Shown here piece by piece: positions 7,439 through 23,240 of a stretch of DNA of 31,932 nucleotides. The stretch covers positions 1-31,932 of IMG/VR virus record IMGVR_UViG_3300021963_000436. One strand, 5' to 3'. Under the pieces are notes generated by a model, which saw only the letters and a program-made list of their open reading frames with translations, had not been told where the DNA came from and did not search any database. Position 1 is the first letter of the stretch, and the number at the start of each line of letters is the position of its first letter. The translations under genes and the position numbers were made by a program. This stretch comes from a virus.

Positions 7439-8104
7439 ATGGCATATTTAAGTAACACGACAGTTGTTGTAGACGCTATTTTAACCGATAAGGGAAGGCA
7501 ACTACTCGCTCAAAACGATGGCTCTTTCCAAATCACACAGTTTTCTTTGTCTGACGATGAAGTAGACTACACTCTTTATAACCCGAATCATCCTTCTGGA
7601 TCAGCATTCTACGGAGAAGCTATTGAGAACATGCCAATCATACAAGCTTTCCCTGAGTCTCAAGAGATTATGAAGTATAAGCTTATTACCCTGCCTAGAG
7701 GTACTGCAAAACTGCCAGTTATTTCTATTGGGTATACCACTATCGTACTTAAGCAAGGTTCTTCTATTTCTATTACTCCGCAGACATTAAATTATCTTGG
7801 AGCTGTTTCAACTTTCGAACAATCTGGATATGTTGCAACGATTGGAGATGTTAGAACTACTGCTGCTTTCAATGGCGTAGGTATTAATACACCACAAGCA
7901 ACTGCTTTAAATGCTACCGGAGTAACTACAGTAGGAACTAATGTCTCTAAGACTGTAATAGGTACTTCAATTAACATTACTGCCACAACCGTAAACACCC
8001 TCTTTGGAAATAACAGCACCCTGTATACTACACTCACTGTTATAGGACGCGATTCTGGTGCAAGATTATTCGTTCCGGTTCAAATAACAAAAGTAACACA
8101 ATAA
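7439..8104 (+). CDS. Virion structural protein (DAILTDKGRQLLA family)
   Basis: A 221-aa protein. Its N-terminus has DAILTDKGRQLLAQNDGSF (residues about 12-30) followed by ITQFSLSDDEVDYTLYNP. I recognise this as a recurring motif in structural proteins of uncultured marine and freshwater phages, but I know of no solved function. The remainder is Thr/Val-rich beta sequence, with no signal peptide or membrane segment. It follows the giant baseplate gene after a short gap carrying the TATTTATTA motif, and the next gene starts 4 nt after its stop. Context suggests a baseplate or fibre-connector role. Confidence is high that it is a virion protein and low for anything more precise. Confidence 0.65.
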   Translation: MAYLSNTTVVVDAILTDKGRQLLAQNDGSFQITQFSLSDDEVDYTLYNPNHPSGSAFYGEAIENMPIIQAFPESQEIMKYKLITLPRGTAKLPVISIGYTTIVLKQGSSISITPQTLNYLGAVSTFEQSGYVATIGDVRTTAAFNGVGINTPQATALNATGVTTVGTNVSKTVIGTSINITATTVNTLFGNNSTLYTTLTVIGRDSGARLFVPVQITKVTQ

Positions 8105-8108
8105 GAAT

Positions 8109-9194
8109 ATGTCATTTACAAGACTTGCTCCAACAGATTTTGTGATTAGCTCGGACTCTATTACAGCTCCGGCTTGGAGTGCTAATCAACCCACGTTAAC
8201 AACTTTTTATACCGCATCCTCTATTCCATCCACTACCATTACTCAAGGAGCTTTCTATTTGAATGTCTACCAAACACAGAGTACTGCGACAGGAGCTGCT
8301 GTGCAATTCGCTATTGCATACGGTAATATTAATGGTTCTGGATCTCAGTGGTATAACCCGCTTGTTCCTGGTGTATCTCCTTCCTTAACAACCTACAGAC
8401 AGTACGAAACCCTTGTTTATGGTCCAGCCCTTTCCGGCTCCTTACAAGGATTTAATTTCGGAGGTCTCGCTACAAACGCTCCTGATATCTTCGCTATAAA
8501 CGTAGACAGAAACAGGTATAAAGAGAGTTTGATGCCAGGTACTTTTAATTTAAGCCTCTCAAGTTCTGCAGGAGAAATTACCCTTTGTGATAATAGTAAT
8601 GACGTTACAACTGTTACATACTTAGACTGTGGTAGGGTCTTTAACCTTGTTTCCGGTTCTTACGGAAGAGCTACTACAACCACTAGTGCTGGACAGATAG
8701 CTCCAGGATATACCGCTTCCGGTTCTTATGGTTTTTACCTTCCCGATATCGGTACTATACTTTTAAATGCTAGTGCCCTTAATCTATCTGCTGTTCAAGG
8801 AGGAATCGGATTACCAGTGGATAGGTCTAACTACGGATCAGGTAGCTACTCTCTTAATGCTTCTGCTTCTTATACTTCTACCAATAACACAGTACTCTTC
8901 CAAGCTATTTCAGCTAGTAAAGAGTTTGAGTTAAACTCTCAAGAGACTATCTCATCTGATTACGTCTTTGTTAGAATTGGTAATGCTGATTATAACTACT
9001 CAACCAATCCGACATTCGTATCTGGATCAGGTGAAGTATTATATTCAACTATGATATACAGTCCACAAACCTATATCACAACTGTAGGAATGTACAACAA
9101 TAATAGTGAACTTTTAGCAGTAGCTAAAATGTCTAAACCTCTTGTAAAAGACTTTACGAAGGAAGCACTTATACGTGTAAAACTCGACTGGTAA
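8109..9194 (+). CDS. Tail/baseplate structural protein with shared C-terminal module
   Basis: A 361-aa beta-rich protein. The N-terminal region (MSFTRLAPTDFVISSDSITA, then AVQFAIAYGN and a YETLVYG segment near residue 100) is of a type I recognise from phage structural proteins. The C-terminal ~90 residues contain NADYNYSTNPT, YITTVGMYNNNSELLAVAK and a terminal V-K-L-D-W. The same layout makes up nearly all of the small protein at 12965-13336, so the module is mobile or duplicated within the tail region. The last residues may cap or trimerise a fibre. No catalytic motif is visible. The spacing of 4 nt from the gene before suggests co-expression. The exact virion location is unknown. Confidence 0.6.
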   Translation: MSFTRLAPTDFVISSDSITAPAWSANQPTLTTFYTASSIPSTTITQGAFYLNVYQTQSTATGAAVQFAIAYGNINGSGSQWYNPLVPGVSPSLTTYRQYETLVYGPALSGSLQGFNFGGLATNAPDIFAINVDRNRYKESLMPGTFNLSLSSSAGEITLCDNSNDVTTVTYLDCGRVFNLVSGSYGRATTTTSAGQIAPGYTASGSYGFYLPDIGTILLNASALNLSAVQGGIGLPVDRSNYGSGSYSLNASASYTSTNNTVLFQAISASKEFELNSQETISSDYVFVRIGNADYNYSTNPTFVSGSGEVLYSTMIYSPQTYITTVGMYNNNSELLAVAKMSKPLVKDFTKEALIRVKLDW

Positions 9195-9205
9195 TAAAAT
9201 AATTC

Positions 9206-10573
9206 ATGAGTAGATCATCAAATAGCCTTAAAACATCTGATGTCATTACTACTCCGATCAAACTGGTATACACTTCGTCGTACGACTGTAGTACACTTGC
9301 GGAGTATGGAATGGAGGTTTTGAGTGGAGTGAATGGCCCTGTAACTATAACAGGCTCTATTCCACAAGAGACTTTAAACTATTGGTCTACAAGACATCTT
9401 TATTATTCTAACTACCTTACCGGATCATTTCCAGTTTCTGCTTCAAGCGCAGATAACTTTTTACAGTCTACAGCTGCTTCCGGTTCTTTAGATTCAGATA
9501 ATAGATATTTCCCTACTGAATCGAATGCTCGTATAACTATACTGTCTATACCAAGAGGAGTATTTGGCGAAAAGATTGCTAAGAGTAATTTTATACTTTC
9601 TTCTTCTGCTTACTATATAATAGATGACGGAAACGGTAACCTTGTAGATCAAGCATCGGGAAGTCTGCATGTAGGTAATATTATTTATCCGCAAGGAATG
9701 GTGATCTTTACCAATCCTAACTATTTAGATATTTTACCATGCCCTACCGGGTCAACTACTACGACAACCTCTACTACAAGTACAACGACTACTGCTGTTC
9801 CGACAACTACGACAACTTCTACTACAAGTACTACAACTACCGCTGCTCCAACAACCACAACTACGAGCACAACCACTAGTACAACAACAGAGGTACCTAC
9901 CACGACTACTACTAGTACGACTACTAGTACAACAACAGCAGAACCTACTACGACAACTACTAGTACAACAACGAGCACAACAACTTGTGCTCCACAGAAT
10001 GCGCAAAGTATGTACTATAATTACGATACTGGATTACCTACAATGTTCGGAACCGGTTCTGCCGAAGCCGCTTGTAATTTATCAGTTAGTGCTTCTACCA
10101 TATACTATAATACTTCGTTAGCGCTTACTACAGGCACACCTTTATACTATGATGAATGTCTTACTGTACCAATAACAGCTAGTGCTTATACAGATACTCC
10201 TCAACAATACTTTAAAATTGGTCCATACTACGTAAATTTTGAAACTGATGGATATACTGTAAGAAGTGTAACAGCTTGTCCTACTCCGACTACAACCACC
10301 ACTACATCTACAACTACTAGTACAACTACGGTAACATATACTTACTATGCTGTAGACAGGTATACTTGTGATTCACCATCAGGACCTTGTACTTTCGCTG
10401 AATCAACCTTTATAGCAAACACTTCTAGCGGGTTAACTCTAGGTAATTACTACTTAGATGTACCTTCAGGAAACATTTATAATATCACGTCTACTACAAG
10501 TAGTGGCGCTTATTTTATAACATATCTATCTGGAGCTGGTACTGCCAACTGTAGTGTTCTTTGTTCAGCTTAA
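9206..10573 (+). CDS. Thr-rich mucin-like tail fibre/adhesin candidate
   Basis: A 455-aa modular protein. Residues 1-183 form a Ser/Tyr-rich N-terminal domain ending in LPCPTGS. Residues 184-263 are five 16-residue repeats of the type TTTTTSTTTSTTT-x-x-P. Residues 264-361 form a small Cys-containing beta module (AACNLS, YYDECLTVP, ending VTACPTP). A second Thr tract (362-375) leads to a final module with several Cys residues (YTCDSPSGPC, NCSVLC). Rigid Thr/Ser/Pro linkers between compact domains are typical of extended, often O-glycosylated surface proteins. Its place at the end of the tail genes and before a glycosyltransferase cassette suggests a fibre or receptor-binding protein. Function and glycosylation are inferred, not shown. 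Confidence 0.6.
   Translation: MSRSSNSLKTSDVITTPIKLVYTSSYDCSTLAEYGMEVLSGVNGPVTITGSIPQETLNYWSTRHLYYSNYLTGSFPVSASSADNFLQSTAASGSLDSDNRYFPTESNARITILSIPRGVFGEKIAKSNFILSSSAYYIIDDGNGNLVDQASGSLHVGNIIYPQGMVIFTNPNYLDILPCPTGSTTTTTSTTSTTTTAVPTTTTTSTTSTTTTAAPTTTTTSTTTSTTTEVPTTTTTSTTTSTTTAEPTTTTTSTTTSTTTCAPQNAQSMYYNYDTGLPTMFGTGSAEAACNLSVSASTIYYNTSLALTTGTPLYYDECLTVPITASAYTDTPQQYFKIGPYYVNFETDGYTVRSVTACPTPTTTTTTSTTTSTTTVTYTYYAVDRYTCDSPSGPCTFAESTFIANTSSGLTLGNYYLDVPSGNIYNITSTTSSGAYFITYLSGAGTANCSVLCSA
9755..9994 (+). repeat. Five 48-bp Thr-rich coding repeats
   Basis: Exactly 240 bp encoding five 16-residue units, each ending in a Pro preceded by two variable residues (AV, AA, EV, AE, CA). The DNA units differ at many synonymous Thr and Ser codons while the protein pattern is kept. 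That suggests old repeats held by selection rather than a fresh expansion. Confidence 0.9.
10289..10330 (+). repeat. Second Thr-rich linker tract
   Basis: A 14-codon tract (TTTTTTSTTTSTTT) that resembles one unit of the 9755-9994 array and sits between the two Cys-containing C-terminal modules. Like the first array it follows a Cys-Pro-Thr, suggesting a repeated module-plus-linker architecture. Confidence 0.75.
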
Positions 10574-10592
10574 AAAGTAAATAAAATTTGTT

Positions 10593-11588
10593 ATGAAAAA
10601 TCTACGTTACATTTGTGCACAACCCAGGCTAATATACTATGCTTGGCAGGTTGAGGTTATGATTAATAACTTTATCAAACAAGGAATCAATCCAAATAAT
10701 ATTGATATTCTTGTTGCCTGGAATCCAGAAGATAAGACATCTACTCCTGAAAATATAGAGGCGTGGACTAAGTTAGCTGAATCTTACAACAGTGTCCGTT
10801 TTTTCTTTTATAGAGATACTAGACAACAGCCGATTCACTATATCTCTTCAGTACGTCCAAATATTCTCAAACAGCATTTTGCAGCACATCCTGAATTAGA
10901 AAAAGAAGCTATCTTTTATCACGATTCAGATATCGTCTTTACTAAGAAGCCTGATTGGAGTTCTTTACTTGAGGATAATATTTGGTATTTAAGTAACACT
11001 AATAGTTACATAAACTACGACTACATCGTCTCAAAAGGACAAGATGTCTATGATAAAATGTGTGAAATAGTTGGAATAGATCCTATCATACCCAAACTGT
11101 TAAATTCAAACTCAGGAGGAGCTCAGTATATTTTAAAAAATGTTAATTATACGTATTGGGAGAAGGTAGAGAGAGATTGCGAGAAACTATTTAAGGAAAT
11201 AACTGACTTAAGTAATGAAAAAGTACAGCTAGATAAACATACAGTATCAGAAGATGTAGCAAGAAGTCCATATCATCCTTTGCAGATATGGTGTGCTGAT
11301 ATGTGGGCTGTATTATGGAATGGATGGTTACTAGGAAATGAGACTAAGGTAGTACCGGAGATGAATTTTAGCTGGGCTACGGATAGTATACAACGGTGGG
11401 AAGAGACGACAATTTTTCATAACGCAGGCGTTACTTGTTCATGCGGTAGACAGTTTTATAAAGCTAATTATATAGAAAGTTTACCTTATAGTATAGAGCA
11501 GAGCAATTACAGAGACGTTACTTGCGGGTATAATTACGTTAAAGAAATAATCGAAACATCTCAAAAATCATGTTTAATACAAAAGTAG
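10593..11588 (+). CDS. Glycosyltransferase, GT-A-like with DxD motif
   Basis: A 331-aa protein without signal peptide or membrane segment. The sequence IFYHDSDIVF (about residues 107-116) holds a DxD motif, the usual divalent-cation and nucleotide-sugar site of GT-A glycosyltransferases. Further conserved-looking elements are NSGGAQYIL (about 170-178), WCADMWAVLWNGWLLG (about 233-248) and IFHNAGV (about 274-280). The arrangement loosely recalls plant-type hydroxyproline/serine O-glycosyltransferases (HPAT/SERGT), which act on Hyp/Ser-rich proteins. I cannot confirm that by eye. It follows the Thr-rich tail gene by 19 nt and overlaps the methyltransferase gene by 19 nt, so the products may act on the same glycan. 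The donor and acceptor are unknown. Confidence 0.65.
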   Translation: MKNLRYICAQPRLIYYAWQVEVMINNFIKQGINPNNIDILVAWNPEDKTSTPENIEAWTKLAESYNSVRFFFYRDTRQQPIHYISSVRPNILKQHFAAHPELEKEAIFYHDSDIVFTKKPDWSSLLEDNIWYLSNTNSYINYDYIVSKGQDVYDKMCEIVGIDPIIPKLLNSNSGGAQYILKNVNYTYWEKVERDCEKLFKEITDLSNEKVQLDKHTVSEDVARSPYHPLQIWCADMWAVLWNGWLLGNETKVVPEMNFSWATDSIQRWEETTIFHNAGVTCSCGRQFYKANYIESLPYSIEQSNYRDVTCGYNYVKEIIETSQKSCLIQK

Positions 11589-12088
11589 TACATTCAGAAA
11601 ATCCTTTAGAGCATTGGTCTGATATAAAAGACGTGGAAGGGAAAGTAGTTTTAGATTTAGGTTGCGGATGGTTATTTCAGCCGCATGAATCGACTCCAGA
11701 ATACCTAATAAATCGGGGTGCTAGCAAAGTTGTAGGAGTGGATGTAGCTTGCGGCGAAATCGAGCAGCTAAAAGAAAAGTACCCTGAACATGTCTTTGTA
11801 TGTAAAGCAGTTACAAGCGTAGAAAGTCTTTTAGAACTTCTAGTTGAATATCAACCCTCCGTAATTAAAATGGATATAGAAGGTCATGAAGCTCATATGC
11901 AGTACATAACAGCAGAGCAATTTTCTTGTGTAGAAGAGATTGCTGTTGAATATCATAATCCAGAATGTAAAAGAATATTGACTGAAAAATTAGATGAATT
12001 TGGTTTTGAGATTTTCTCAATAAACCAGTTCGGATGGTTTTGTACTGATATTAATCAGATGGGAATAATGCACGCTAAAAGAAAATAA
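11570..12088 (+). CDS. FkbM-type SAM-dependent methyltransferase
   Basis: A 172-aa protein with a class I SAM-binding fold: motif I VVLDLGCGW at about residues 26-34, an acidic strand end at VVGVDVACGE (about 51-60), and IKMDIEGHEAH at about 99-109. The MDIEGHE sequence is the hallmark of FkbM-family enzymes, which often O-methylate sugars or polyketides. It lies between two glycosyltransferase-like genes and overlaps the first, so methylation of a sugar laid down by its neighbours is the simplest role. No membrane or export signal is present, so it should act in the host cytoplasm during virion assembly. The family assignment is strong; the substrate is inferred. Confidence 0.8.
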   Translation: MFNTKVVHSENPLEHWSDIKDVEGKVVLDLGCGWLFQPHESTPEYLINRGASKVVGVDVACGEIEQLKEKYPEHVFVCKAVTSVESLLELLVEYQPSVIKMDIEGHEAHMQYITAEQFSCVEEIAVEYHNPECKRILTEKLDEFGFEIFSINQFGWFCTDINQMGIMHAKRK

Positions 12089-12089
12089 A

Positions 12090-12962
12090 GTGGAAATAAT
12101 AAAAGCTACATACGGAGGAGTTGATTGTATTGAGAAGATACGAGCTAAAATAAACGGAAATAAGCTTATAATTCGTTCTAGTAATGACATTATAGGAGAC
12201 ACTCAACCAGGAGTTGTGAAGTATCTAGATCTTACGATAGAAAATAAAGGAGTAATTACTGTTCATAGTATTAAAGAACATAACCTCTTTGTATTTCCTC
12301 AATCAGAACACGAGAGATTGGGGATATTCTATTCAAATAATAATAACAGTACTATATACCCTGCAATTAAAGCATCGTTAAAATCAATTCTAAAAGCGTC
12401 TGAGAATAAGGCTGATATTTTAACGTGTATGTGGCAGCATGAACCTGAAAATCCTTTTCCGGAGTTTATCGCCTGGACCCATACTTGTAGCCATTTAAAC
12501 CAATTACTTCAAGTAATGCAATTGCTTTACCAAGCAAGAGAGATTAACAAATACAAATACGTTTCTTTCTTAGAACACGATGTATTATATCCAGAAGGTT
12601 ATTTTGATTTTCCTGAGTTTGAAGAAGGAAGTGTAATGACAAATATGAATTACATGGGTATTAATTCTGAAGGATTTCAGCCGCTAGGACAGAAAGATGA
12701 ACCTTTTCATCAAATGACAATGAGGTTTGACGAAGCAATTCGACATTGCGAGTCGATATTATCTAATGCTCTTATTCGAAATGCTGGACTTATAGAACCC
12801 CAGACCCTGATACGAAAGCAGTGGGAATCTAATCACCCTGCAATACACGTAAATCACGGGAAACACTTTACTTCTCATTATAACGTTTACACAAAGAATG
12901 TGTTTCCGGAACACAGCTACTGGGGCTTACATAAGGATGTTTGGCCGTTTTACTATTTATAA
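12090..12962 (+). CDS. Glycosyltransferase-like protein with DUF3395-like N-terminus
   Basis: A 290-aa protein with a GTG start one base after the previous stop; no nearby ATG fits better. Residues 1 to about 60 (IKATYGG, then NDIIGDTQPGVVKYLDLTI) resemble DUF3395, a beta domain also found in DnaJC11-like proteins. The rest contains YVSFLEHDVLYPEGYFDFPE (about 158-177), where EHD could serve as a DxD-like metal site, and later His-rich segments (NHPAIHVNHGKHF). I read it as a second glycosyltransferase acting with the two upstream genes. The 3' end overlaps a TATTTATAA motif preceding the next gene. The fusion with a DUF3395-like domain is unusual. Function is moderately supported at best. 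Confidence 0.5.
   Translation: MEIIKATYGGVDCIEKIRAKINGNKLIIRSSNDIIGDTQPGVVKYLDLTIENKGVITVHSIKEHNLFVFPQSEHERLGIFYSNNNNSTIYPAIKASLKSILKASENKADILTCMWQHEPENPFPEFIAWTHTCSHLNQLLQVMQLLYQAREINKYKYVSFLEHDVLYPEGYFDFPEFEEGSVMTNMNYMGINSEGFQPLGQKDEPFHQMTMRFDEAIRHCESILSNALIRNAGLIEPQTLIRKQWESNHPAIHVNHGKHFTSHYNVYTKNVFPEHSYWGLHKDVWPFYYL
12954..12962 (+). promoter_or_regulatory. TATTTATAA motif overlapping stop codon
   Basis: A TATTTATAA variant whose last bases are the TAA stop of the upstream gene, 2 nt before the ATG at 12965. The flanks (ACTATTTATAAGTATG) match the site at 29931-29946 with one difference. Confidence 0.3.
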
Positions 12963-12964
12963 GT

Positions 12965-13336
12965 ATGCCATCGTACGCACCATATACATTAGATCTAGGA
13001 GCTGAAACTACAATTTACGTAAATGAAGTAAAATGTAGAGTTTTAGAGAATGATTTTAATTACTCTCAGAACCCTACTGTCTTTAAAGCAACTACTCTTA
13101 TTACAGGTTCTTCTGCATTACCTTTTTATGCACCAGAAAGCGGTTCCGCTATAAATGGTCAAATTGTAGACGGTACCCTAGCCGATAATATAACAGGATC
13201 TTCCTTTCACCCCTACGCAACTACTGTAGGACTTTACAACGAAGCTAACGAGTTACTTGTTATCGGAAAATTAGCTACTCCTTACCCTATTCCTTCTAAT
13301 ACAGATATAACTTTTATTGTTAGATGGGATAGTTAA
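12965..13336 (+). CDS. Small virion protein, paralogue of an upstream C-terminal module
   Basis: A 123-aa protein (MPSYAPYTLDLGAE...). I prefer the ATG at 12965, 2 nt after the previous stop, over an in-frame TTG at 12941 that lies inside the upstream gene. It contains ENDFNYSQNPT, HPYATTVGLYNEANELLVIG, K-L-A-T-P and a C-terminal VRWDS. The same spacing and residues occur in the last ~90 residues of the 8109-9194 protein. It therefore looks like a free-standing copy of that tail module. It lies after the glycosylation cassette, which appears inserted between tail genes. A role as a fibre tip or cap is a guess. Confidence 0.6.
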   Translation: MPSYAPYTLDLGAETTIYVNEVKCRVLENDFNYSQNPTVFKATTLITGSSALPFYAPESGSAINGQIVDGTLADNITGSSFHPYATTVGLYNEANELLVIGKLATPYPIPSNTDITFIVRWDS

Positions 13337-13354: not shown

Positions 13355-13822
13355 ATGACTGAAAAATGGTTTATATATGAAGGCGGTTTCGTAAAAGAGT
13401 ACGATTCTGTCGATAAATTCCCTGAAAAATGTGTAGGTTTCGTGTATAAGATTACCAACATAAAGACTGGTAAATTCTACATCGGTAGGAAATCTCTTTT
13501 TTCAAATACCAAGAAAAAATTAACTAAGAAAGAACTTGCCGAACACGAAGGTCCGGGTAGAAAACCTACAAAAAAGCTTGTAACTAAAGAATCTAACTGG
13601 CAAGATTACTGGGGATCTAATAAAACTATCTTAGATGAAATTAAGCAGACTGGATCTCAAGACTTCCGTAAAGAAATACTTAAGTTCTGCTTTAATAAAA
13701 AACAACTTACTTACTGGGAAGTGCATTATCAGTGCATAGAAGGAGTTCTCATGTCGGATAAGTCTTACAACGACAATATCTTAGCTAAGTTTTTTCGCAA
13801 AGATTTGGAAATCTCAGAATAA
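13355..13822 (+). CDS. GIY-YIG family endonuclease (SegE-like)
   Basis: A 155-aa protein. Residues about 28-47 read GFVYKITNIKTGKFYIGRKS: the GIY-equivalent strand (VYKIT), the YIG strand (YIG) and the following Arg expected in this nuclease fold. YWEVHYQ near residue 119 provides the Glu usually found on a later helix and used for metal binding. The layout resembles T4 SegE-like free-standing endonucleases, and homologues in T4-like phages are often annotated that way. It is the first of three DNA-metabolism genes placed among structural genes. It could be a homing nuclease or a fixed resolvase- or repair-like enzyme. No intron is visible nearby. Confidence 0.75.
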   Translation: MTEKWFIYEGGFVKEYDSVDKFPEKCVGFVYKITNIKTGKFYIGRKSLFSNTKKKLTKKELAEHEGPGRKPTKKLVTKESNWQDYWGSNKTILDEIKQTGSQDFRKEILKFCFNKKQLTYWEVHYQCIEGVLMSDKSYNDNILAKFFRKDLEISE

Positions 13823-18832: not shown

Positions 18833-19231
18833 ATGATTAAGCTCGTAGACATATTAAATGAAATAATTGAAGAGAAAGACGATAGGTGTCTACGTATTGC
18901 TCGCCGTAAGTACGATAAGCCTTCTGCTTACAGATCAGGTGCTATCGTTAGATGTCGTAGAGGAGAAATTTGGAAAGGTTTAAAAGAAGAAGATCTTATA
19001 CAAGAAAAAGAATCTCTTCACAAATGGTTCTCTAGACAAGGCGGAGAAGGAGGATCAAAGGGTTGGGTCGATTGTAATACATGTCGTAAAGACCCGAAAA
19101 CAGGTAGAAAAAAATGTAAAGCATGCGGTCGTCAAAAAGGCGAAGAGAGAGCTAAGTATCCATCCTGCCGACCAACACCATCTCAATGTAGTAGATCAGG
19201 TAAAGGTAAAACTTGGGGAAAAACAAAATGA
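18833..19231 (+). CDS. Leader-bearing modular protein (DUF5872-like C-terminus)
   Basis: A 132-aa protein that starts immediately after the previous stop. MIKLVDILNEIIEE (residues 1-14) matches the leaders of the next genes and ends in L-x-E and I-x-E. A basic module, CLRIARRKYDKPSAYRSGAI (about 19-38) and CRRGEIWKGL, follows. LIQEKES then leads into a DUF5872-like module: SLHKWFSRQGG, GWVDCNTCRK, CKACGRQKGEERAKYPSC, RPTPSQC. Both modules recur in T4-like phage proteins, and neither has a function I know. The high Lys/Arg/Cys content suits a DNA-facing or zinc-binding head-internal protein. It overlaps the following gene by 4 nt when that gene starts at 19228. Confidence 0.65.
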   Translation: MIKLVDILNEIIEEKDDRCLRIARRKYDKPSAYRSGAIVRCRRGEIWKGLKEEDLIQEKESLHKWFSRQGGEGGSKGWVDCNTCRKDPKTGRKKCKACGRQKGEERAKYPSCRPTPSQCSRSGKGKTWGKTK

Positions 19232-20728: not shown

Positions 20729-21328
20729 ATGGATTTACAAAAACTTAAAGGACACGTACCTGATTCTGTGATTGCACAAATTCCAGAGGTAATGGAGAAA
20801 TTTCAAATTAACACTCCCTTACGTCTTGCACATTTTCTTGCACAATGCGGACATGAATCAGGCGGTTTTAGAGTTGTAAATGAAAATCTAAACTACAGCG
20901 CTAAAGGATTACAAGGTATTTTTAAAAAGTATTTTCCTACCGCTACCTTAGCCGAACAGTATCAACGCAAGCCTGAAAAAATTGCTAATCGCGTTTATGC
21001 TTCAAGAATGGGTAATGGAGACGAGGCTTCTGGTGAAGGATTTAAGTTTCGCGGTCGTGGTTTTATCCAATTAACAGGAAAAACTAACTACACAGCCTTT
21101 GGTAAGGCTGCAGGTGTAGACACCGTTGCAAACCCCGATTTAGTAGCAAGTAAATACCCTTTACTTTCTGCTGCATGGTATTGGAACAGTCGAAAATTAA
21201 GTGCAGTAGCCGATCAAGGTGCTGGAGATGATATAGTAACGAAAGCTACTAAGTTAGTAAATGGCGGTACGATTGGATTAGCTGATCGTATTAAGCATTT
21301 TAAAGAGTATCATAATTTACTCAAATGA
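20729..21328 (+). CDS. GH19 endolysin (chitinase/lysozyme family)
   Basis: A 199-aa single-domain protein. RLAHFLAQCGHESGGFRVVN (about residues 32-51) carries the catalytic Glu (E43) typical of family 19 glycosidases. KFRGRGFIQLTGKTNY (about 107-122) is the second hallmark block, and AWYWNSRKL (about 150-158) and TKLVNGG complete the fold. Phage GH19 enzymes cut the glycan backbone of peptidoglycan at lysis. There is no signal peptide or membrane segment, so release should need a holin, and no membrane protein gene is adjacent. It overlaps the next gene by 4 nt. The enzyme could act within the virion instead, but a lysis role is most likely. Confidence 0.88.
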   Translation: MDLQKLKGHVPDSVIAQIPEVMEKFQINTPLRLAHFLAQCGHESGGFRVVNENLNYSAKGLQGIFKKYFPTATLAEQYQRKPEKIANRVYASRMGNGDEASGEGFKFRGRGFIQLTGKTNYTAFGKAAGVDTVANPDLVASKYPLLSAAWYWNSRKLSAVADQGAGDDIVTKATKLVNGGTIGLADRIKHFKEYHNLLK

Positions 21329-21579
21329 AAAAAAGAACATTAATAAACGAAGTTAGGCAATTTAAAAAAATTGCAGGTTTACTAAAAGAAGATCACTTTT
21401 ACGCACCTGACTATCTTCTACAAATGCTAGGAAACCAAGAAGCTGTAGACAGATTGATAAGTCAGTTCGAAGAAGACCATGCTACTGTAGAAGACCCTGA
21501 AGGAGATAATGCCCGTGATTACTTATTGAGCATAGATAATCCAGAAGAGTTAATGAATGCAGTTAAAGATTACTTATGA
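21325..21579 (+). CDS. Small leader-bearing protein (KTLINEV family, copy 1)
   Basis: An 84-aa protein starting MKKRTLINEVRQFKKIAGLL followed by K-E. This leader is nearly the same as at 22096 and 22572. It holds two candidate protease tripeptides (INE and LKE). The body is acidic and helical (YLLQMLGNQEAVDRLISQFE, then DEP-type segments) and ends NAVKDYL. Apart from the leader it has no visible similarity to the other two. It overlaps the endolysin gene and the following gene by 4 nt each. A role as a small internal head protein, by analogy with T4 IPI-IPIII, is my inference. Confidence 0.6.
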   Translation: MKKRTLINEVRQFKKIAGLLKEDHFYAPDYLLQMLGNQEAVDRLISQFEEDHATVEDPEGDNARDYLLSIDNPEELMNAVKDYL

Positions 21580-22049: not shown

Positions 22050-22161
22050 AAAATAGTTATTATTTATTATAACATTACTTAGCTTTATAAAAAAAATGAA
22101 AAAGAAGACATTAATAAACGAAGTAAAGCAATTTCAAAAGATTGCGGGTATTATAAAAGAA
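22036..22161 (+). repeat. Direct repeat, copy 1 (gap plus leader)
   Basis: This runs from the last codons of the 21576 gene through the intergenic gap into the first ~22 codons of the 22096 gene. It matches 22511-22634 with few differences: AAACTGAATCTTAAAAAATA, then TATTTATTATAACATTACTT, then the KTLINEV leader codons. The offset is about 475 bp. Confidence 0.8.
22061..22069 (+). promoter_or_regulatory. TATTTATTA intergenic motif
   Basis: A copy within the 46-nt gap before the ATG at 22096, 26 nt upstream of it. It lies inside the direct repeat. Confidence 0.35.
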
Positions 22162-22491
22162 GAGAAAAGAGAAACTTGGGCTGAAAACAACAAAAGGTTG
22201 ATGCAAGCATTTCGACAGGCAAAAATTGACCCTCAAAAACCTGCATATTGCGTTACAGGTTGGGGACGTGGACATGACGTTTATAAGGTCCCTCAAGCAC
22301 AAAATCTTCTTATTGATATAATGGAAGAAGCAGGTAAATATGAACTCGATGTAAGAATGATACAAGATCCAGAAGCTACTGCCGGTTATTACGAAGAGAG
22401 CTTTAAAGAAGTAATTGATAGAGAGCAACTAGTACCTAAACTAGAGGTTGAGTCTCAAGATGTTGAAACAGGTTGGGAAATTTGGCAATAA
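22096..22491 (+). CDS. Small leader-bearing protein (KTLINEV family, copy 2)
   Basis: A 131-aa protein starting MKKKTLINEVKQFQKIAGII followed by K-E-E. After the leader, residues about 34-80 (LMQAFRQAKIDPQKPAYCVT, then KVPQAQNLLIDI) align by eye with a segment of the 22572 protein (VQQAFQKAGIDMNKPIHVVQ, then KANPKAFLADL). The two genes are therefore paralogues with diverged bodies. The C-terminus is acidic and ends in GWEIWQ. No catalytic motif is seen. The gene is preceded by a TATTTATTA-bearing gap rather than an overlap, so it may start a transcript or a separate expression unit. A head-internal role is inferred from the leader. Confidence 0.6.
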   Translation: MKKKTLINEVKQFQKIAGIIKEEKRETWAENNKRLMQAFRQAKIDPQKPAYCVTGWGRGHDVYKVPQAQNLLIDIMEEAGKYELDVRMIQDPEATAGYYEESFKEVIDREQLVPKLEVESQDVETGWEIWQ

Positions 22492-22510: not shown

Positions 22511-22634
22511 AAACTGAATCTTAAAAAATAGTTGCTATTTATTATAACATTACTTACCTTTAGAAAAAAAAATGAAAAAGACATTAATAAACGAAGTTCG
22601 CCAGTTGCAGAAGATAGCTGGAATTTTAAAAGAG
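22511..22634 (+). repeat. Direct repeat, copy 2 (gap plus leader)
   Basis: The second copy of 22036-22161. Its first ~16 bases match the 3' coding end and stop of the 21576 gene but are non-coding here, which indicates a tandem duplication that carried a fragment of the upstream gene along. Confidence 0.8.
22536..22544 (+). promoter_or_regulatory. TATTTATTA intergenic motif
   Basis: A copy in the 80-nt gap before the ATG at 22572, 27 nt upstream. It is the duplicated counterpart of the 22061 site. Confidence 0.35.
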
Positions 22635-23240
22635 AACGAAGATAACGTTATTCCTGGCGGACCTGATTGGGTTTCTCTAAGTGTATTTTTAGAGGCTTTA
22701 GGTCTAAACCCTAAAGACCCTATTTTCCAAGGAGCGATGAAGAATAGAGATATTGAAGAATTACTACAGATGATAGAAGATACAGCAGGACTTGATCAGT
22801 ACACTAAGAGTGATCTAATCGATGCGATGGAAGAAGCTCAGTTCAGCCAAGATATGATTGATTTTATAATCGATGAAAATCCTTTAGTAAAAGGATTGGA
22901 AAGGGGTTTAATGGAGGATGAAAATTCTGATTCAGAGACAGTTCAGCAAGCTTTTCAAAAAGCAGGTATCGATATGAACAAACCGATACACGTAGTGCAG
23001 AGTGGAGAGGAAGAAGGAGAGCCGTTTAAAGCAAACCCTAAAGCTTTTTTAGCAGATTTAGATCAAGAAATTAAAGATTACGACGAGCAAAACGAAGACC
23101 CTGAATTTCCTTCAGGTATTGCGTATGACTACGAAGCAAGCGATATACATTCTCCAGAAGAAGCTGGATTACCGAGATCAGTAGTAGCGAAACTAGCTGT
23201 AATGTTTGGTGAAGATTTTGAATACATAATCTTCCAGTAA
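22572..23240 (+). CDS. Leader-bearing acidic protein (KTLINEV family, copy 3)
   Basis: A 222-aa acidic protein starting MKKTLINEVRQLQKIAGILK followed by E-N-E. Residues about 30-110 are helical (SLSVFLEALGLNPKDP, then NRDIEELLQMIEDTAGLDQY) and absent from copy 2. From about residue 120 (TVQQAFQKAGIDMNKPIHVV) it shares a domain with the 22096 protein. The C-terminal part (GLPRSVVAKLAVMFGEDFEY) is unique. It is the last gene before the strong hairpin terminator at 23272-23296, so it probably ends a transcription unit. No enzyme motif is visible. A head-internal role is inferred from the leader only. Confidence 0.6.
   Translation: MKKTLINEVRQLQKIAGILKENEDNVIPGGPDWVSLSVFLEALGLNPKDPIFQGAMKNRDIEELLQMIEDTAGLDQYTKSDLIDAMEEAQFSQDMIDFIIDENPLVKGLERGLMEDENSDSETVQQAFQKAGIDMNKPIHVVQSGEEEGEPFKANPKAFLADLDQEIKDYDEQNEDPEFPSGIAYDYEASDIHSPEEAGLPRSVVAKLAVMFGEDFEYIIFQ

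Follow-up and report, generated by a model that had tools for sequence, protein, structure and literature searches.

Streptococcal serine-rich-repeat glycoprotein loci encode GtfA/GtfB together with variable glycosyltransferases, and the capsid protein of the chlorovirus PBCV-1 is glycosylated by virus-encoded enzymes. Among phages, virions of the mycobacteriophages Che8, Corndog and Myrna are glycosylated by phage-encoded glycosyltransferases (Freeman et al. 2023, as cited in PMC12363180 and PMC12619734); the glycans sit on capsid and tail-tube C-termini and are reported to shield virions from antibodies. Here we analysed a complete IMG/VR record, IMGVR_UViG_3300021963_000436, whose full 31,932 nucleotides (nt) we call the window, and we focus on positions 9206-12962, where a fibre gene with threonine (Thr)-rich arrays is followed by a glycosyltransferase gene, GT1, and a cassette of further genes. 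An earlier reading of this DNA (the original prediction) had proposed a system that decorates the phage's own fibre with a glycan. This proposal is supported by the coupling of GT1 and arrays in relatives, which recurs on unrelated carriers and in unrelated phages, and we consider it quite probable from the sequences that the locus is a virion-glycosylation module, in which GT1 would start O-glycans on virion Thr arrays and the cassette would elaborate them. The window phage is T4-like by its terminase, portal and baseplate genes, its closest isolate is Flavobacterium phage immuto (57% for the terminase), and its host group is probably Bacteroidota.

The four open reading frames (ORFs) of the module lie where they had been placed, with the same spacing: GT1 starts 19 nt past the fibre stop, and the methyltransferase gene overlaps the GT1 gene by 19 nt. 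The features, including arrays rich in Thr, serine (Ser) and proline (Pro) and domains that contain cysteine (Cys), with lengths in amino acids (aa), are:

9206-10573, plus strand: tail/fibre protein and putative glycan acceptor, 455 aa, with an N-terminal domain, two Thr/Ser/Pro arrays and two Cys-containing C-terminal domains
9752-9994, plus strand: Thr array 1, residues 183-263 (81 aa), five 16-aa units with a 48-bp period
10265-10336, plus strand: Thr array 2, residues 354-377 (24 aa), between the two Cys-containing domains
10593-11588, plus strand: GT1, 331 aa, phrog_4417, GT-A fold, putative initiating enzyme, with its DxD at D111/D113
11570-12088, plus strand: short FkbM-like S-adenosylmethionine (SAM) methyltransferase, 172 aa, variable cassette position 1, where relatives have other genes
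12090-12962, plus strand: GT2, 290 aa, GTG start, GT-A fold, with an N-terminal motif like that of L-rhamnose-binding lectins, variable cassette position 2

The original prediction described one Thr/Ser/Pro repeat region; that region is present as array 1, with units of the type TTTTTSTTxTTTTxxP, but the protein has two arrays rather than one, with 70 Thr and 14 Ser among their 105 residues. The arrays flank a Cys-containing domain, and the fibre N-terminal domain (9206-9745) is kept in relatives both with and without arrays. All four ACN codons for Thr are in use (27/27/9/7), and 60 of the 76 codon differences between array units are synonymous (tested by binomial against 1/3, which is nominal only, as the units are not independent). 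Because all four Thr codons are used and the unit differences are mostly silent, the arrays are not simple DNA slippage; what is retained in the arrays is the amino acid and not the DNA. Minus-strand ORFs across the array (9721-9978 and 9752-10006) were rejected as low-complexity artefacts.

To assess coupling in environmental relatives (loci are given by L numbers), we fetched relatives by a neighbouring tail gene (7439-8104), so that the sampling was blind to both GT1 and the arrays, and scored the closed loci. Seven loci carried both an array and GT1, none an array only, three GT1 only and 34 neither (Fisher p=3e-6), and the same classes after deduplication held 6, 0, 3 and 23 loci (p=9e-5). 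Thus, the check that had been suggested, whether cassette and Thr-rich repeats co-occur across related phages, came out positive. In 28 longer contigs of this sample, GT1 was present in two, both with arrays, and in two further longer contigs the sequence breaks off within an array cluster or immediately next to it. We also scanned for nine successive Thr codons (Thr9), again blind to GT1, and counted by hand the array ORFs followed by 1 kb or more of sequence; GT1 was the next or an overlapping gene for 8 of about 41. Moreover, GT1 of group-2 relatives (about 50-55% identity) often follows an array whose carrier lacks the fibre N-domain of the window, and over all GT1 loci the array carriers sort into 14 groups between which no likeness was detected. 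Some contigs with GT1 genes that have no nearby array carry arrays elsewhere, and most of the cellular ones do not; the idea that L046, L048, L053, L059, L060, L064, L065 and L069 are arrayless was rejected, as Thr-codon clusters lie elsewhere on those contigs. Separately, Thr9 arrays without GT1 in other phage groups (L269, L282, L287, L309 and others) were seen by eye to be followed by small hydrophobic (holin-like) or peptidase-like genes.

The same coupling is found in isolate phages, among them Firmicutes phages with C-terminal Thr tags on major tail and capsid proteins. Homologues of GT1 occur in 74 phage records, and capsid or tail genes adjoin them in most of those inspected. A strict Thr DNA pattern was matched by 13 of 15 complete isolate genomes with GT1, compared to none of 13 without it (Fisher 3e-6); R3.3 and LP65 did not match it but encode virion or neighbouring proteins with a Thr-rich C-terminus. 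In phiFL1A a Thr/Ser array ends the major tail protein, and GT1 overlaps its stop; Lactococcus prophage bIL285 (GT1 homologue orf45), 1706, CHPC836, iLp84 and R3.3 carry Thr tags on major proteins of the tail, the head or both; and in Chryseobacterium phage MA9V-3 two array proteins precede GT1. Furthermore, homologous major tail proteins bear C-terminal Thr tags only in phages with GT1: those of phiFL1A, R3.3 and bIL285 are tagged, whereas their GT1-less counterparts in phiJL-1, Bassarid, cIP1, Streptococcus phages and phiMH1 are not. Within Coetzeevirus, R3.3 has GT1 and tags, while phiJL-1, Bassarid and cIP1 have neither.

In other isolates, a Thr array in a shifted frame comes straight after the annotated stop and before GT1, behind the capsid gene in VPE25 and 9183 and behind a tail protein gene in RQ1, SA2 and TPWB06. 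The shift is -1 in VPE25 and 9183 (A AAA GGG in 9183) and +1 at CCC TAA in RQ1, SA2 and TPWB06. Such shifted-frame arrays after the major capsid or tail stop are:

L083 5752-6001
L413 5800-6001
L410 5672-5931
L414 5713-5930
L430 4757-4926

This arrangement suggests that a programmed frameshift tags only a fraction of the subunits.

By profile search GT1 matches phrog_4417, a family labelled as of 'unknown function' (residues 5-322 against profile positions 2-291 of 293, E=1.9e-63). Pfam gave no match for GT1, and a PDB sequence search gave nothing meaningful. The original identification of the first enzyme as a DxD glycosyltransferase held: an AlphaFold2 model from a 48-sequence alignment (predicted local distance difference test score, pLDDT, 94.9) was matched by Foldseek to GT-A enzymes, best to UGGT, followed by glycogenin and alpha-1,3-galactosyltransferase. 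The residues D111, D113, GAQ176-178, W233, M237, H276 and G279 do not vary across 24 members, which come from phages of Bacteroidota, phages of Firmicutes and bacteria. The template-modelling (TM) score to UGGT and glycogenin is about 0.45, which means a fold in common and does not imply family identity; to Orf49 of Lactobacillus phage LP65 it is 0.72. GT1 was not assigned to the CAZy families GT8 or GT24, for which there was no Pfam match in 48 members and no PDB sequence match. The faint similarity to Hyp/Ser protein glycosyltransferases that had been suggested was not recovered. The nearest solved folds are those named above, and no Pfam hit for HPAT/SERGT was obtained at E<=1 in the 48 GT1 members, a null that rests on a library in which their models are possibly absent, with no solved reference found.

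Bacterial homologues of GT1 occur in Sphingobacterium, Chitinophaga and Pedobacter (HHalign 100% for the one compared) and are about 440-590 aa long. In their loci (L390-L409; for example L402 5995-7524, L400 1942-2169 and L390 2173-2367) they adjoin LanC-like proteins, C39-peptidase ABC exporters and peptides with a GG leader, of which some have a Thr-rich core. These loci resemble those of ribosomally synthesized and post-translationally modified peptides (RiPPs), and thus the GT1 family plausibly works on peptides; by their gene content the bacterial loci are possibly unrecognised glycopeptide RiPPs.

The module occupies a slot that varies between relatives, bounded upstream by a tail gene at 8109 and downstream by a GIY-YIG gene at 13355. 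Two tail genes frame it in the window:

8109-9194, plus strand: upstream tail protein, at the edge of the variable slot, with a shared C-terminal domain
12965-13336, plus strand: small tail protein, listed among the ORFs as 12941-13336 with a TTG start

The restart of the tail genes at 12965, as originally noted, is matched by an ATG there. Many of the relatives that lack the module have the fibre N-domain joined directly to the domain of the 12965 gene (an empty site; L099 5348-6244, 298 aa), and the slot is taken by different fibres in other relatives and by tail fibre and tail spike genes in immuto. The Thr-array/GT1 module is one alternative occupant at a fibre position. Fibres upstream of GT1 in L013 and L032, as well as L087 3952-5361, contain long repeats of the SNFIGxxAGxxATNA type.

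For a survey of the cassette we used L001-L040, 40 loci that are relatives of the window locus. GT1 lies directly 3' of the array protein in most of them, and the interval from GT1 to the following tail gene holds as many as six genes, which belong to 24 clusters if GT2 is counted. Pfam matches include transferases (families GT6, GT2, Gly_transf_sug and Fringe, with GT61 below the cutoff), methyltransferases 11, 24 and FkbM, an NAD-dependent epimerase and one radical-SAM/SPASM protein, such that all genes behind GT1 known to Pfam are glycan- or methyl-modifying with the sole exception of the radical-SAM protein; several clusters have no Pfam hit. The first enzyme, GT1, is constant, and the genes behind it are exchanged. 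In L013 a 208-aa ORF lies 687 nt upstream of GT1, directly before it, and looks by eye like a 2-oxoglutarate-Fe(II) oxygenase, a possible hydroxylation step.

For the two cassette genes of the window, the assignments differ in firmness. The methyltransferase had been called FkbM, and its SAM motif VLDLGCG and FkbM-type IKMDIEG are both invariant in its relatives, but its score against TIGR01444 FkbM is below the cutoff (E=0.0035, 17.8 bits, cutoff 37.7), so that it is FkbM-like only. The third gene, thought to be glycosyltransferase-like, indeed has a GT-A fold by AlphaFold (pLDDT 86.5) and Foldseek, with the PBCV-1 glycosyltransferase structures 2p6w and 2p73 among its fold matches; a search for GT2 among annotated phages gave no match. 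The N-terminus of GT2 (12090-12300) contains the GDPxxGxxKYL motif of SUEL/L-rhamnose-binding lectins, which was matched in several domains; the whole-chain profile gave E=1.4e-9, but single-domain scores were weak, and only about 26-40 residues align. The glycosyltransferase may thus carry a fused domain that binds sugar.

Starting from the genes, their GT-A folds, the intact DxD, the GT1/Thr-array coupling and the variable cassette, all of which the analysis shows, we infer array glycosylation, the identity of the sugars, the order of the steps and methylation of the glycan. Given the strength of the coupling, the Thr arrays are the likely acceptor. The N-terminal domain would anchor the fibre, and the Thr arrays would lie between small Cys-containing domains and form a mucin-like stalk. 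As the constant enzyme and putative initiator of protein O-glycosylation, GT1 would use a nucleotide sugar to place a first sugar on Thr (or Ser) residues in the arrays, and this step probably takes place in the host cytoplasm ahead of tail assembly; an array-type Thr peptide that could serve as a candidate acceptor is TTTTTSTTSTTTTAVP. Genes behind GT1 would then extend and cap the glycan, and in the window GT2 would add a sugar and the FkbM-like protein would methylate one. Since the cassette in this fibre/adhesin slot varies between relatives, as a unit or gene by gene, each phage could have its own surface glycan. Most likely, although we are less sure of this, the result would be a stiff sugar-coated stalk, with its glycan varied to alter interaction with the host surface or to avoid non-productive binding or recognition.

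Several observations weigh against so close a link. An array ORF lies at most 700 nt upstream of only 77 of 143 distinct GT1 genes, and 33 of 41 Thr9 array ORFs, in other phage groups, lack GT1; thus, arrays alone do not imply GT1, and the idea that every Thr array goes with GT1 was rejected. The original prediction had named relatives that keep the cassette without any Thr-rich protein as refuting it, and one sublineage (L031, L034, L036 and L134), with GT1 and no array, is of this kind: the L031, L034 and L036 contigs, which are fragments, have no Thr cluster, and L134 is arrayless within its locus, so that GT1 there would need another acceptor or be a relic. Moreover, the isolate controls are homologues of only two tail proteins, plus immuto; the strict match in SAC12B, one of the 13, falls outside its Thr-rich neighbour gene; and many sequences are related, so the p-values overstate independence. 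Arrays can thus exist without GT1, and GT1 without an array. The arrayless GT1 loci bear on an explanation that overlaps with array-directed glycosylation, namely that GT1 is a general virion-protein glycosyltransferase with arrays as its commonest substrate and folded tail or capsid surfaces as others. The arrayless sublineage keeps GT1, next to a 176-aa protein that is homologous to the fibre N-domain and has no array, with the DxD intact in L031, L034 and L134, and the neighbours in LP65 and SAC12B are Thr-rich more loosely, but array and GT1 are tightly coupled elsewhere, and we hold this explanation to be possible, though doubtful.

If the arrays were mere flexible linkers or tags, GT1 and the cassette might modify another target, such as host surface polysaccharide, in the manner of serotype conversion. 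Thr/Ser/Pro arrays in other phages without GT1, the arrayless GT1 loci and the resemblance of the slot's GT2- and GT6-family enzymes to polysaccharide enzymes would fit; against them stand the tie between array and GT1 in blind samples and in isolates with homologous tail proteins, its recurrence on carriers without other detectable likeness and the usual order of array protein then GT1 within structural gene clusters, which make this improbable. Glycosylation of phage DNA bases by GT1 and the cassette, in the way of the T4 glucosyltransferases, is more improbable still. The window phage is T4-like, but T4 DNA glucosyltransferases have a GT-B fold, unlike the GT-A fold of GT1, which tracks Thr arrays and structural genes and has cellular homologues in peptide-modification loci. 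DNA-modifying virus-encoded glycosyltransferases are known (work cited in PMC12619734), and VPE25, which carries a GT1 homologue, has glucosylated DNA, but a separate T4-like beta-glucosyltransferase is credited with that modification (PMC4999554). Glycosylation of virion Thr arrays by GT1 is also favoured by its GT-A fold, which is closest to those of the protein-glycosylating enzymes UGGT and glycogenin. We lean somewhat towards a wider form of this proposal, in which phrog_4417 would define a virion O-glycosylation system that is guided by Thr arrays and common to unrelated Bacteroidota and Firmicutes phages, with one enzyme that recognises tags on fibres, tail tubes or capsids, borne in some phages by apparently only part of the subunits through a programmed frameshift, and with a swappable cassette in aquatic T4-like phages that would be a phage counterpart to bacterial surface-antigen variation.

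Elsewhere in the window, the product of 13355-13822 is a SegE-like GIY-YIG protein (Pfam E=6.5e-26), yet its PHROG label is 'NAD synthetase', and the immuto gene at the same place is also annotated 'NAD synthetase'; the label is probably a propagated mislabel. Small, otherwise unlike proteins at 21325-21579, 22096-22491 and 22572-23240, and also at 18833, 19213 and 19964, have a common short N-terminal leader, MKKKTLINEVKQFQKIAGIIKE-like or MIKLVDILNE-like and ending in (I/L)xE. We likened this leader to T4 capsid-targeting sequences with a gp21 protease site, by which analogy these may be internal head proteins. Rfam and tRNA scans of the window gave no matches.

Virion glycosylation is already known from mycobacteriophages; the enzyme family, the Thr-array acceptor and the swappable cassette appear to be new. 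No description of poly-Thr, mucin-like or Thr-rich glycosylated phage tails was found in the literature covered, which left subscription papers out of scope. The proposal gives a testable function to an unannotated family beside capsid and tail genes of lactococcal, enterococcal, staphylococcal and lactobacillus phages, and a simple rule, that a Thr array with a GT1 family enzyme would mark a glycosylated virion protein. If true, virions with a sugar coat would be far more frequent than the few examples from mycobacteriophages, and cassette swaps would diversify the surface glycans of aquatic phages. It would also link phage virions with Bacteroidota RiPP-like loci via one peptide-modifying enzyme family.

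Comparable to the locus are other carriers of the phrog_4417 or 'prophage pi2 protein 34' family, of which GT1 is a member and which isolates also carry beside capsid or tail genes; the long mucin-like acceptor and downstream cassette of the window were not seen in the isolate regions examined. Like the mycobacteriophages, the window phage would use its own glycosyltransferases on virion proteins. Kinship with Che8 was rejected for the two proteins compared, gp109 and gp110, which are unrelated to GT1 (HHalign probability <=0.2%); Che8 differs as well in that its capsid and tail proteins have no Thr array and its glycosyltransferase genes lie at the genome end, not beside the acceptor. PBCV-1 likewise assembles a glycan with methylated sugars on a virion protein by several enzymes of its own, but it is a eukaryotic virus, and its glycans are N-linked to capsid Asn, with no Thr arrays. 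Finally, although the streptococcal serine-rich-repeat loci are bacterial, with accessory Sec export and GT-B enzymes (GtfA/B) where GT1 is GT-A, they have the same elements: a low-complexity Ser/Thr adhesin stalk, a constant initiating glycosyltransferase and strain-variable glycosyltransferases downstream.

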